NCBI GenBank assembly: GCA_007693945.1
Contig: RECP01000081.1
Span: 1 to 64,000, forward strand
Direction of reading: 5' to 3'
Origin: Spirochaetaceae bacterium
GTDB taxonomy: Bacteria; Spirochaetota; Spirochaetia; DSM-27196; PWMO01
DNA length: 64,000 nt
Position numbers and translations under genes: made by a program. Shown here one piece after another: positions 19,415 through 29,647 of the stretch (the stretch's first letter is position 1; every line of letters begins with the position of its first letter). The notes beneath the pieces were generated by a model. The model was not told the DNA's origin and searched no databases. It worked only from the letters and a program-made list of their open reading frames with translations.

Positions 19415-20368
19415 TCAAGGTAGCCGCGGCACGAGTTGCGCGACCGCGTGGCGGTCATCAGGGGCTATCCATTGCACCGCCGGCATTTGTCGGAAGAAGG
19501 TCAACTGGCGCTTGGCGTAGCGGCGGCTGTTGCGTGCAATCGCCTGTTCGATTGAAGCGCGCACCGCGGTGTCACGCGCCGCAGCCGGCCCCTCGACGGA
19601 CACGTGCGGATGCTCAAAAAACTCGCGGTAACCGATGGCGCGCAGTCCCGGGTCGGTGGCACCGTACCCGTCGGCCACCAGCCGTTCGACTTCGGCAACC
19701 AGCCCCTGGTGGAACATTCGCCGTACACGCAGATTGATACGGCGGTAGAGCTCTTCCCGCGGCCGGTCGATTGCTACGATAACGGCCCGGTAGTCGTCTC
19801 GCAGCGAAGTCGGCTGTTTGAAGCGCGATCGCGGCACGCCCGCGGTGTGGTAGATCTCCAGCGCCCTGACGATCCGGTAGCGATCACCGGGAGCGATACG
19901 CGCGGCCGATTGCGGGTCCACGGCGTTCAGTTCACGATGCAGCGCTTCGATTCCGTCACGCGCGAGGCGAGCCTGCATCAGCCCGCGAACATCGGCCGAA
20001 GCTGCCGGCGCCTCGGGCAAGCCGCACAACAGACTCCGAATATAGAAAGCGGTCCCGCCGGAGACAACCGGCAGCCTGCCGCGGGCCACAATGTCGTCGA
20101 TCAGCGTTTCGGCAGTCTGTACGAACTCACCGACGTGATAGGGTTCATCCGGTTGTCTGATATCAACGAGGTGATGCACCAGCCGGGCACGCTCTTCCAG
20201 CGTCGGCTTTGCCGTTCCGATATCCATGCCCCGATAGACCTGCATGGAGTCTGCGCTGATGACTTCGGCCGCGGCTTCGCCGAACAGATCGAGCAGAAGC
20301 TCGGTCTTGCCGGAGGCAGTGGGACCAAAAAGGCAGAAGAGCGGCCGGGGCTTACTCTTCGATCTGAT
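19415..20368 (-). CDS. miaA: tRNA dimethylallyltransferase; apparent ATC start overlapping rpoZ
   Basis: In-frame P-loop 'PLFCLFGPTASGKTELLLDLFGEAAAEVISADSMQVYRGMDIGTAKP'. The track start (20245) omits the P-loop. No ATG/GTG/TTG occurs in frame between 20245 and the stop at 20432-20434. Confidence 0.85.
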   Translation of the reverse strand: MRSKSKPRPLFCLFGPTASGKTELLLDLFGEAAAEVISADSMQVYRGMDIGTAKPTLEERARLVHHLVDIRQPDEPYHVGEFVQTAETLIDDIVARGRLPVVSGGTAFYIRSLLCGLPEAPAASADVRGLMQARLARDGIEALHRELNAVDPQSAARIAPGDRYRIVRALEIYHTAGVPRSRFKQPTSLRDDYRAVIVAIDRPREELYRRINLRVRRMFHQGLVAEVERLVADGYGATDPGLRAIGYREFFEHPHVSVEGPAAARDTAVRASIEQAIARNSRRYAKRQLTFFRQMPAVQWIAPDDRHAVAQLVPRLP

Positions 20369-20543
20369 ACTGCACCTTGCGTGTGAGCACCTGCCGAATG
20401 GCGGTGGATACCACCTTGCCCTGGTTGTGCTCTATCTCTTCATCGCCGGTGACACTGAGCTGATACGCACGGCGCATGGCGGCGCGGGTCACCTCGTATA
20501 TGTTGCTGTCTTCCTGTATCAGTAGATCCAGCGGAAGTATCAT
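20352..20543 (-). CDS. rpoZ: DNA-directed RNA polymerase omega subunit
   Basis: MILPLDLLIQEDSNIYEVTRAAMRRAYQLS…IRQVLTRKVQYQIEE; GGAGG 5 nt before the ATG at 20543. Confidence 0.8.
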   Translation of the reverse strand: MILPLDLLIQEDSNIYEVTRAAMRRAYQLSVTGDEEIEHNQGKVVSTAIRQVLTRKVQYQIEE

Positions 20544-26272: not shown

Positions 26273-27034
26273 TCAATCGACGCAGCCCAGCCCCTGGCGC
26301 CGGTCGGCGTGGAAGAAGTCGAAGACCACCTCGTCACAGCAGGCGTTGGCCTCTTCAAAAGTGCCGTCAAACCGTACCTCTCCGTCATCGAGGAACAGGA
26401 TGTGGTCGGCAATGCGCCGGATACTGGTCAACTCGTGCGTTACCGCCACCAGCGTGATGCCAAATCGCTGGGCCATGCCGATAATCAGTGCATCGAGGGT
26501 CTTGCTGGTCATCGGATCGAGCCCGGCGGATGGTTCATCGAAGAACAGGATCTCCGGGTCAAGCGCCATGGCACGCGCCAGCGCGGCGCGCTTCTTCATG
26601 CCACCGGACAGCTCCGAGGGGAACAGGTGGGTCACACCGTTGAGCCCCACCCGGTTAAGCTTGGTGTCAACAATCCGCGTGATCAGCCGCGGCGGCAGCC
26701 GGGTATGCTGCTCGAGAGGAATAGCGATGTTATCGTGTACCGAGATCGAGTCCAGCAACGCACCGTGCTGGAACAGCATACCGATTCGGCGTCGAACTTC
26801 GCCGAAAGCCTGCTCCGAATACGAGGTGATCTCGTGTCCGAACAGTTCGATACTTCCCGAGGTCGGGATCTCGAGTCGAACGATGTTGCGCAACAGCGTG
26901 GTCTTGCCGCAACCGCTGCGGCCGGCGATCACCGTAATCTGCCCCGGATAGATCTCGGCGTTGATCCCTTTGAGGATCGGGGTATCACCGTACGAGAAGT
27001 TGAGATCCCGTATTCGCACAATTGGTCGAGCCAC
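26273..27034 (-). CDS. Mce/Mla-type ABC transporter ATP-binding protein (MlaF-like)
   Basis: Walker A GRSGCGKTT, signature LSGGMKKRAALARA, Walker B EILFFDEPSAGLDP. Adjacent to MlaE- and MlaD-like genes. Confidence 0.9.
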   Translation of the reverse strand: MARPIVRIRDLNFSYGDTPILKGINAEIYPGQITVIAGRSGCGKTTLLRNIVRLEIPTSGSIELFGHEITSYSEQAFGEVRRRIGMLFQHGALLDSISVHDNIAIPLEQHTRLPPRLITRIVDTKLNRVGLNGVTHLFPSELSGGMKKRAALARAMALDPEILFFDEPSAGLDPMTSKTLDALIIGMAQRFGITLVAVTHELTSIRRIADHILFLDDGEVRFDGTFEEANACCDEVVFDFFHADRRQGLGCVD

Positions 27035-27055: not shown

Positions 27056-28165
27056 TCACAGGTACGTGAAGCTGAAGATCACGTCAACGACAATTACGGT
27101 GAAGATCGAAGCCACTACCGCCTGCGTGGTGGCACGCCCGACGCCGGACGCCCCGCCGGAGACGTGAAAGCCCGAGTAACTGCCGATGATCACGATTACC
27201 CAGGCGAACACCACGGTCTTGGAAAGCCCGGTCACCAGATCCGAGAGCTTCAGTATGGCGAACACACGATCGGTATAACCGGTCACGGTGAGATCGAGCA
27301 TCGAAAGCGAGATGATCAGTCCGCCCAGCAGCCCGATCACAATTGACAACGATGCCAGCAGCGGCATGGCAATTGTCATCGCCTGGAACTTGGGTACCAC
27401 GACGTAGTCCACGGGATCGATTCCCATGGTACGCAGCGCATCCAGCTCATCGCTGACCTTCATGGTGGCGATCTCGGACGCAATTGCCGAACCGCTGCGT
27501 CCGGCAACTATGATGGCGGTCATCAGAGGCCCCATCTCGCGGACTATGGATATCGCCAGCAGATCGGCCACAAAGATGTTGGCACCAAACTGACGCAACT
27601 GTGCCGCGGACTGCAGCGCCAGAATCCAGCCGATGATCAGCGAAAGCAGCCCGACAATACCAACCGCATCGGCTCCGATGATGCGCAGATTCTCAACCAC
27701 AGCGCCGCGTTTGTGGCCGCGGGGACGAAACAGCGAGGCAACCGACCGATAGAACACCTCGGCACTCAGCCGCGTTGCCGAGCCGACGGTATCGCGCAGC
27801 CTCAGCGTCCAGGCGCCGAGACGTTCCAGCCACGACGTCTCGTGCAGGCTATACTGGCTGTCGGCGGAGTCCGAGCGCAGCAGGTCGATCGCCTCGGTAA
27901 CCTGCCGCGAGCCTCCGACCACCGTGCAGTGCGTTCCGTGCTGAGAACTGATTTCATCGATCAGCGCCAACCCGGCGCTGTCGATACGGGTCACCGCGGC
28001 AATATCGATCCGCTCGAGCGCCAGGCCGCGACGCAACCCGATCCGTTGACGCAGCCGCCGCGTGTAGACCGCGTAGAGCCGAGGCACGCTGTCGTAGACG
28101 AGATCACCCTCGAGATAGATCGTGCGCTGCTTGAGTCGCATTCCGCGTTCACACCTGCCCGTCAA
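27056..28165 (-). CDS. MlaE-family permease with N-terminal STAS-like domain
   Basis: Permease core 'ANIFVADLLAISIVREMGPLMTAIIVAGRSGSAIASEIATMKVSDELDALRTMGIDPVDYVVVPKFQAM'; N-terminal 'LERIDIAAVTRIDSAGLALIDEI'. Confidence 0.9.
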   Translation of the reverse strand: MTGRCERGMRLKQRTIYLEGDLVYDSVPRLYAVYTRRLRQRIGLRRGLALERIDIAAVTRIDSAGLALIDEISSQHGTHCTVVGGSRQVTEAIDLLRSDSADSQYSLHETSWLERLGAWTLRLRDTVGSATRLSAEVFYRSVASLFRPRGHKRGAVVENLRIIGADAVGIVGLLSLIIGWILALQSAAQLRQFGANIFVADLLAISIVREMGPLMTAIIVAGRSGSAIASEIATMKVSDELDALRTMGIDPVDYVVVPKFQAMTIAMPLLASLSIVIGLLGGLIISLSMLDLTVTGYTDRVFAILKLSDLVTGLSKTVVFAWVIVIIGSYSGFHVSGGASGVGRATTQAVVASIFTVIVVDVIFSFTYL

Positions 28166-28769
28166 AGTACTGCAGGATCCGGTCCGCGAACTCGTCTATC
28201 TCCTCGAGCATGACGGCATTGACCCGCAGCACAAACGTCGCGATCTCGCGATCAGGCAGCGGGTCCCGCCGCTCGAACCGGTGCTCCACCAGCACGCCTT
28301 CGTCGGCCGCCCGGCGCAGGGTCAGCACAGCCATAACCCGCGCTCGCGGAGGGCCGTCGCAGCAGATGTGCTCCAGCACGCGTAACTCGCTGTGGATCTC
28401 GAGCTCGGGTCGAACAGTACGGTGCTGACGGTGGATCTCGGTGAACACGGTACGCGCGCGCAGCGAGTCTGCCACCAGGTCAGCGAATGCCACACCGAGA
28501 TCGACGCCCCACATTTCACCGGCCAGGTAGACAATCTGTGGTCCGTCGCTGCGCTGCACGATCTGACGCCGTTCATAGGTGCGGTTGACGCGACCATCAA
28601 GCACGAGTACGACCGCCGATACCGGCTGTGCCGGCGTACCGGCGGCATCCGCTGATTGCTGATAGTCTATGACGTAGTAATTGGGTGGCGGCGGAGCCGG
28701 AGCCGTCAGGCACGCGGCGCTCACCATTGCCACCAGTAGCGCTGCACCCGGCAGCTGTAGCCTTCCTAT
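28149..28769 (-). CDS. ABC-type transport auxiliary lipoprotein (PqiC-like); apparent ATA start
   Basis: From 28769: MGRLQLPGAALLVAMVSAACLTAPAPPPPNYYVIDYQ…, a normal lipoprotein signal peptide with AGGAGG 6 nt upstream. The track start (GTG 28733) truncates the signal peptide. Confidence 0.75.
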   Translation of the reverse strand: MGRLQLPGAALLVAMVSAACLTAPAPPPPNYYVIDYQQSADAAGTPAQPVSAVVLVLDGRVNRTYERRQIVQRSDGPQIVYLAGEMWGVDLGVAFADLVADSLRARTVFTEIHRQHRTVRPELEIHSELRVLEHICCDGPPRARVMAVLTLRRAADEGVLVEHRFERRDPLPDREIATFVLRVNAVMLEEIDEFADRILQYFDGQV

Positions 28770-29647
28770 CGTGAACCTCCTCGAGTACGCAGCAAGGAAC
28801 CCGGGTTCTCGCTGATCTGTATTGCGAAGTCATTGAGATAGATCATGGTCTCGCGCAGCACTTCAATCGAGCTGACCAGATTACGGCGGCTCTGCATCAC
28901 CGTCAGGTCAATATCAGCTATCGTCCGTCCGGCCTGCTCGGTGGTCCGGTTGATGGCATCGAACAGCTCCGGCAGATCGAGCTCAGCCGTCTGCTCGTCA
29001 AGTCTGGCCACCAGGCTGCGGAACGAGACCGAAGACTGCGCCACATGGTAACTGGCGACCTCCATATTGGACAGGATCACCCCGATCGATTCCCGATTTT
29101 CGCGCACCACGGCATTGAGATTGGCCAGCAACTCGGCAAACTGTCTGCGGTTCTCCACGTCCAGCACGGCCGAGACATCGTCGAGCAATCCCTCCAGGCC
29201 GAGCGCAATATTCTCAGCCGGCTGCGTAAGGCGCGCAAAGGCACTGCGGCCCGCCGGTATCAGTTCGCCGGGGCGCAGAGTCTGGGCTTCATTGCTGCCA
29301 CCGGTCAGCTCGATCTGCATCAGGCCGGTGATACCCACCGGCACCAGTTGAGCCTCGACATCCGCCGGAATGCGGGTGCCCTCCACAACATTGATTTCCA
29401 CGATCACCGTGCGCACGTCCTGCGGATGAAAGAACATGCGGTTGACCGTACCGATGTCGATGCCCTGAAACCGCACCGTACCGCCGACTTGCAGACCGTT
29501 CACCGAGGTGCCGGTGTAGTGGATCTCGTAGTGATCGTAGGTGCGAAACCATTCACTACCGGCGACCGCAAAGAAGAACAGGAACAGAACCGTCACCGAA
29601 ACCAGAACAAAGAGCCCGACGCGCAGCTTGCTTGCCCGGCTTACCAT
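28766..29647 (-). CDS. MCE/MlaD-family protein
   Basis: N-terminal TM; MCE domain 'YTGTSVNGLQVGGTVRFQGIDIGTVNRMFF…VVEGTRIPADVEAQLVPVGITGLMQIELTGG'. Confidence 0.93.
   Translation of the reverse strand: MVSRASKLRVGLFVLVSVTVLFLFFFAVAGSEWFRTYDHYEIHYTGTSVNGLQVGGTVRFQGIDIGTVNRMFFHPQDVRTVIVEINVVEGTRIPADVEAQLVPVGITGLMQIELTGGSNEAQTLRPGELIPAGRSAFARLTQPAENIALGLEGLLDDVSAVLDVENRRQFAELLANLNAVVRENRESIGVILSNMEVASYHVAQSSVSFRSLVARLDEQTAELDLPELFDAINRTTEQAGRTIADIDLTVMQSRRNLVSSIEVLRETMIYLNDFAIQISENPGSLLRTRGGSR

Follow-up and report, generated by a model that had tools for sequence, protein, structure and literature searches.

A conserved ATA codon overlapping the mlaD stop is the probable start of a lipoprotein gene in an uncultured spirochaete genus

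Introduction

The window analysed here (the whole stretch of 64,000 nucleotides, part of a 3.73-Mb, 140-contig genome from an uncultured spirochaete genus) contains a gene for an Mla-associated lipoprotein directly downstream of mlaD, and its first canonical in-frame start codon lies only seven residues ahead of the lipobox cysteine. Where does translation of this gene begin? The original prediction placed the start at an ATA codon overlapping the mlaD stop and suggested that initiation is relaxed or regulated in the lineage as a whole. We examined the junction, its counterparts in related genomes, and the initiation machinery.

Results

The mlaD-lipoprotein junction

On re-reading, the predicted positions of the AGGAGG, the ATA, the mlaD TAG and the canonical starts were all correct (Table 1). 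On the minus strand, the mlaD frame ends with CTG CGT ACT CGA GGA GGT TCA CGA TAG, and in the lipoprotein frame the same bases read AGGAGG TTCACG ATA. The AGGAGG (28781-28776) is thus separated from the ATA (28769-28767) by the 6-nt spacer TTCACG. Canonical in-frame starts ahead of the lipobox cysteine are limited to GTG 28733, ATG 28727 and the GTG adjoining that ATG; upstream of GTG 28733, no ATG, GTG or TTG occurs in the lipoprotein frame. Overlaps with the same frame relation are frequent on the contig (9 ATGA, 1 GTGA and 1 TTGA), and the ATAG does mirror a common arrangement, as had been proposed. RNA folding revealed no conserved or unusually stable structure at the junction (z +0.6 to +1.7). 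A 16S 3' end, sought for reading the anti-Shine-Dalgarno (anti-SD) sequence, was not found.

Table 1. Positions of features discussed in the text (window coordinates)
Feature	Position	Strand	Remarks
mlaD-like gene (MCE-domain lipid transport protein)	28766..29647	-	PF02470, E 4.9e-13; upstream partner
mlaD stop TAG	28768-28766	-	overlaps ATA as ATAG
20-nt invariant block ACTCGAGGAGGTTCACGATA	28767..28786	-	last bases are ATA; alignment of window genome, G002 and G004
AGGAGG Shine-Dalgarno	28776..28781	-	in final mlaD codons (CGA GGA GGT); same in three species
Putative AUA start of lipoprotein gene	28767..28769	-	ATAG here, ATAA in relatives, ATGA in other families
GTG, first canonical in-frame start	28731..28733	-	rejected as start; 7 residues to lipobox Cys
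ABC transport auxiliary lipoprotein	28149..28769	-	206 aa from ATA; PF03886, E 9.4e-11; lipobox Cys is residue 20
mlaE permease, N-terminal STAS-like region	27056..28165	-	PF02405, E 4.7e-75; PF13466 below cut-off
mlaF-like ATPase	26273..27034	-	PF00005, E 6.5e-32
ATC, candidate miaA start	20366..20368	-	AAGGTG 20378-20373 upstream, all within rpoZ

The lipoprotein product

The genes for MlaD, the lipoprotein, MlaE and the ATPase are consecutive, and the lipoprotein matches PF03886 with 42 bits against a curated cut-off of 26. The MlaE permease has an N-terminal STAS-like region that scores below threshold, and it looks like a fused MlaB-MlaE.

Computed peptides agreed with the earlier description that canonical starts give only MAMVSAAC and the ATA a lipoprotein signal. 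Reading from the ATA yields MGRLQLPGAALLVAMVSAAC, with one arginine in the n-region and a best 9-residue Kyte-Doolittle mean of 2.5; MAMVSAAC, read from the GTG, has seven residues ahead of the cysteine and neither lysine nor arginine. The signal peptides read from the ATA in three species are MGRLQLPGAALLVAMVSAA-C, MSNLRVLSGIVASALLLSG-C and MSSLRVLIGFVLSALLSG-C, and a charged n-region with a signal peptide of 18-19 residues was obtained from the ATA start only. The lipobox cysteine is residue 20 in the window genome and in its relative G002, likewise in an outgroup gene that starts at ATG (L006), and it is invariant in seven aligned relatives. We consider it very unlikely that the protein starts at GTG 28733 or ATG 28727 with a very short signal peptide or none. 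An in-frame GTG does precede the cysteine in each of three species, but the peptides it would give there are uncharged and 7-9 residues long; moreover, no clear Shine-Dalgarno (SD) sequence lies upstream of either codon, and the conserved AGGAGG would be left serving nothing.

Conservation within the genus

Among the six genomes of the genus that were compared, the locus was found in two besides the window genome, G002 (L020) and G004 (L021), with identities to the window genome of 67-69% for the lipoprotein and 81% for MlaD. In the lipoprotein frame, both read TCG AGG AGG TTC ACG ATA AGC, which places ATA at the homologous position in 3/3 genus genomes carrying the locus. The mlaD stop is TAG in the window genome and TAA in both G002 and G004. 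As ATA is present in three genomes with differing stops, a sequencing or assembly error was rejected as its source. Orthologues with ATG at this position, which the original prediction had regarded as a sign of such an error, are absent inside the genus, and ATG does stand at that place in other families; the ATA start it proposed is well supported by both relatives in the genus.

The invariant block spans the SD sequence, the spacer and the ATA, and identity among the three species drops directly after the ATA. Within it, the six mlaD codons ACT CGA GGA GGT TCA CGA are identical in all three, and four of the six are minor codons in the window genome (CGA, 6.5% of Arg; TCA, 7.4% of Ser; ACT, 8.7% of Thr). 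Identical six-codon runs are not rare in themselves, as they occupy 10 of 288 windows elsewhere in mlaD, and part of the block is under constraint from the MlaD tail TRGGSR. Taken alone, the run is therefore modest evidence for the ATA start, supportive but not conclusive. What lends the block weight is its use of rare codons, its precise match to SD sequence, spacer and ATA, and the drop in identity immediately past the ATA.

The lipoprotein gene is under purifying selection (dN/dS 0.20-0.27), and dS between the window genome and its relatives is ~1. The first 20 codons evolve fast (dN/dS 0.5-1.2, from few sites), which may fit a signal peptide. No relatives of mlaD or the lipoprotein gene were detected in G001 (92% complete) or G005 (89% complete), where only distant MlaE paralogues were found, and the locus seems to have been lost in part of the genus. 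This absence, with the locus present in three genomes only, is what might be expected of a decaying gene, deprived of its start and of useful translation. Such decay is most unlikely, however, as three species retain an intact frame, with dS ~1 between the window genome and the others and dN/dS about 0.26, and the SD sequence and the ATA have been kept in all three.

The lipoprotein frame is also open upstream of the ATA, for 13-37 codons, and elements resembling an SD sequence are able to promote frameshifting. A frameshift near the mlaD stop could then produce an MlaD-lipoprotein fusion, but in such a fusion the lipoprotein signal would be buried, CGA TAG/TAA offers no slippery sequence, and the point at which the upstream frame closes varies between the three species, lying 20, 37 and 13 codons above the ATA. 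We rate a fusion as the least probable of the alternatives, with next to no chance of being correct.

Junctions in other families

Nine loci from two other families (L006, L008, L010-L013 and L015-L017) have ATGA at the homologous junction, formed by the TGA of mlaD and the ATG of the lipoprotein gene, and one further locus (L018) has GTGA. Four (L005, L007, L009 and L014) are without such an overlap; they include the sole other genus of the same family, in which the lipoprotein starts at ATG. The MlaD tail in one of the ATGA families ends in LLLRGRSTGGSLR, resembling the LLRTRGGSR of the focal genus. The SD sequence is weaker or farther in the ATG-started outgroups; L013, for instance, has GGAGG at 9 nt. 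Among 46 genomes of the order, no additional genomes with the gene were found. Separately, the lipoprotein homologue of L013 (G026) contains an in-frame TAG, reflecting either a broken gene or an assembly error.

These junctions also bear on the ACG (28772-28770) immediately before the ATA, which is equally conserved, being invariant in the three species, and might itself serve as the start. It lies just 3 nt from the AGGAGG, though, and in three outgroup loci (L008, L010 and L013) an ACG precedes the ATG, so that the old start position corresponds to the place of the ATA and not to that of the ACG. A start at ACG is thus very unlikely indeed.

ATG in the other families is probably the ancestral state and not a mark of error. 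A single G-to-A change in ATGA gives ATAA, in which the mlaD stop is retained and AUG becomes AUA. The simplest path, as suggested by the few taxa available, would be one transition from ATGA to ATAA followed by ATAA to ATAG in the window species.

Initiation elsewhere in the genome

A lineage-wide relaxed or regulated mode of initiation was not borne out. The genome-wide motif scan, which covered ATA among the codons ATA, ATC and ATT, returned 47 sites with AGGAGG-N4-8-ATA compared to 67 for the reversed control, and hence no enrichment. Individual inspection of the 47 sites identified no further gene with a convincing ATA start. Two long frames were scanned and only one (L075; G000:C24, near 3803) had a Pfam match; it was rejected as an ATA-started gene and is probably a broken, frameshifted ABC-2 permease gene, because the match begins in mid-domain. 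Among 82 conserved ORF pairs between the window contig and its syntenic partner in G002, some of which are antisense shadows, only the lipoprotein gene and miaA were without a usable shared canonical start.

The miaA gene had been put forward as a parallel case. At the rpoZ/miaA junction (window 19415-20431, minus strand; L027-L038), the focal genus lacks a canonical miaA start close by: the window genome and G002 have none ahead of the P-loop, G004 has a late TTG, and in G001 and G005 an ATG lies far upstream, within rpoZ. In the other genus of the family, a GTG stands near the P-loop, where the focal genus has AAG, AAA or AAC. Five species share the ATC, with a suitably spaced AAGGTG. G007, a complete genome, and G010 likewise have no nearby canonical start and carry ACG and ACC at that place. 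The parallel holds as to the missing canonical start and the shared ATC, but conservation of the ATC is weaker evidence because it sits inside rpoZ codons that are conserved anyway. We regard the ATC as a candidate miaA start.

Inspection of the IF3 gene showed it to be intact and ordinary, with a TTG start after GGAGG as in relatives, and an altered IF3 was rejected. The same apparent TTG start after GGAGG was seen for infC in nearly all genomes of the order that were examined (L039-L050). In other bacteria, infC has ATT, ATA or ATC starts that are used for IF3 autoregulation. A tRNA-Met with anticodon CAU is present in G004 and G006, and an altered initiator tRNA was rejected on the strength of these genus members. 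The CAU tRNA-Met of G004 has an initiator-type anticodon stem; two sites with the same stem occur in G001, neither called as a gene by ARAGORN. No exact initiator tRNA match was found in the window genome's own assembly, probably reflecting an assembly gap. As far as it is visible, the initiation machinery looks ordinary.

Discussion

The best explanation for this locus is a real, inherited AUA start of the lipoprotein gene at 28769-28767, to which we assign a probability of about 0.82 from the comparison of sequences. Initiation there is probably driven by the strong SD sequence together with termination-reinitiation. Ribosomes finishing mlaD would halt at UAG (UAA in the relatives) with the AGGAGG of the final codons facing the anti-SD; the overlapping AUA would be within reach, the initiator tRNA could pair with it through two of its three bases, and translation would restart one base back. 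The ATGA-to-ATAA transition would have taken place in the ancestor of the genus, or in that of the branch retaining the locus. It would have been silent for mlaD (TGA to TAA) while weakening the start of the lipoprotein gene, and the full AGGAGG at 6-nt spacing may compensate for the weak AUA. Along with initiation at AUA, we infer coupling to mlaD termination, a yield below that of AUG, and this compensation by the SD sequence.

The lipoprotein gene offers a clean comparative case in which an AUA start was kept through species divergence (dS ~1) and its one-step origin is legible in the sequences. It also provides a simple test case for whether ribosomes that reinitiate are less selective about the start codon than those initiating de novo. 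Gene callers limited to ATG, GTG and TTG will truncate such proteins, with loss of their signal peptides. The AUA start shows no new translation system. On a more speculative level, ATGA overlaps might be a mutational route to AUA starts, as the TGA-to-TAA change is stop-silent and a post-termination ribosome held by the SD sequence may be less strict; on that view, many bacteria might have coupled ATAA/ATAG starts, a class that gene finders miss and that has been overlooked. We regard this generalization as doubtful, if worth stating.

Comparison with known systems

Natural AUA starts have been described for infC, ccpN and citZ of S. aureus, with that of ccpN also present in B. subtilis (PMC13009471). 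In S. aureus, non-canonical starts with extended SD sequences, AUA included, yield ~10% of the output from AUG, rising to as much as 30% in rich medium for one AUA gene (PMC13009471). The spirochaete gene resembles these in its AUA start, its strong SD sequence and, as for ccpN, conservation in related species. It differs in that the S. aureus starts are individual sites with extended SD motifs and no described stop/start overlap, and they were established by ribosome profiling and reporters, whereas the spirochaete case rests on comparison (PMC13009471).

A GTC start in Streptomyces sigR is repressed by IF3 (PMC5472188). Like this GTC and the ATT or ATC of infC, the putative ATA start departs from the canonical codons and has been retained across its genus downstream of a strong SD sequence; the codon is a different one, and a regulatory role was demonstrated for those genes. 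Weaker starts tend toward compensation by stronger SD sequences (PMC5622118), and AGGAGG at 6 nt from an AUA would fit that pattern. The lipoprotein resembles PF03886 auxiliary lipoproteins in its family match and its operon place beside mlaD, mlaE and mlaF, and differs from members in other families of the order, which start at ATG or GTG.

Translation of overlapping ATGA pairs is, as a rule, coupled by termination-reinitiation, in which an SD sequence often plays a part (PMC6728339). In E. coli, reinitiation needs initiator tRNA, involves IF2 and IF3, and could be driven from non-AUG codons by initiator tRNAs with matching mutant anticodons (PMC2268962). Overlaps of 4 nt have been given as (A/G/T)TGA (PMC3887535), and ATAA/ATAG overlaps are left out when only ATG, GTG and TTG starts are counted; we found no description of the ATAA/ATAG combination in the literature searched. 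The spirochaete junction shares with ATGA pairs the 4-nt overlap geometry, the SD sequence inside the upstream gene and the tandem operon genes (PMC6728339), and in related families the mlaD-lipoprotein junction is itself ATGA. It differs in its ATA start, which gives ATAA or ATAG. AUA starts and ATGA overlaps were both known, and what is new here is their combination as ATAA/ATAG.
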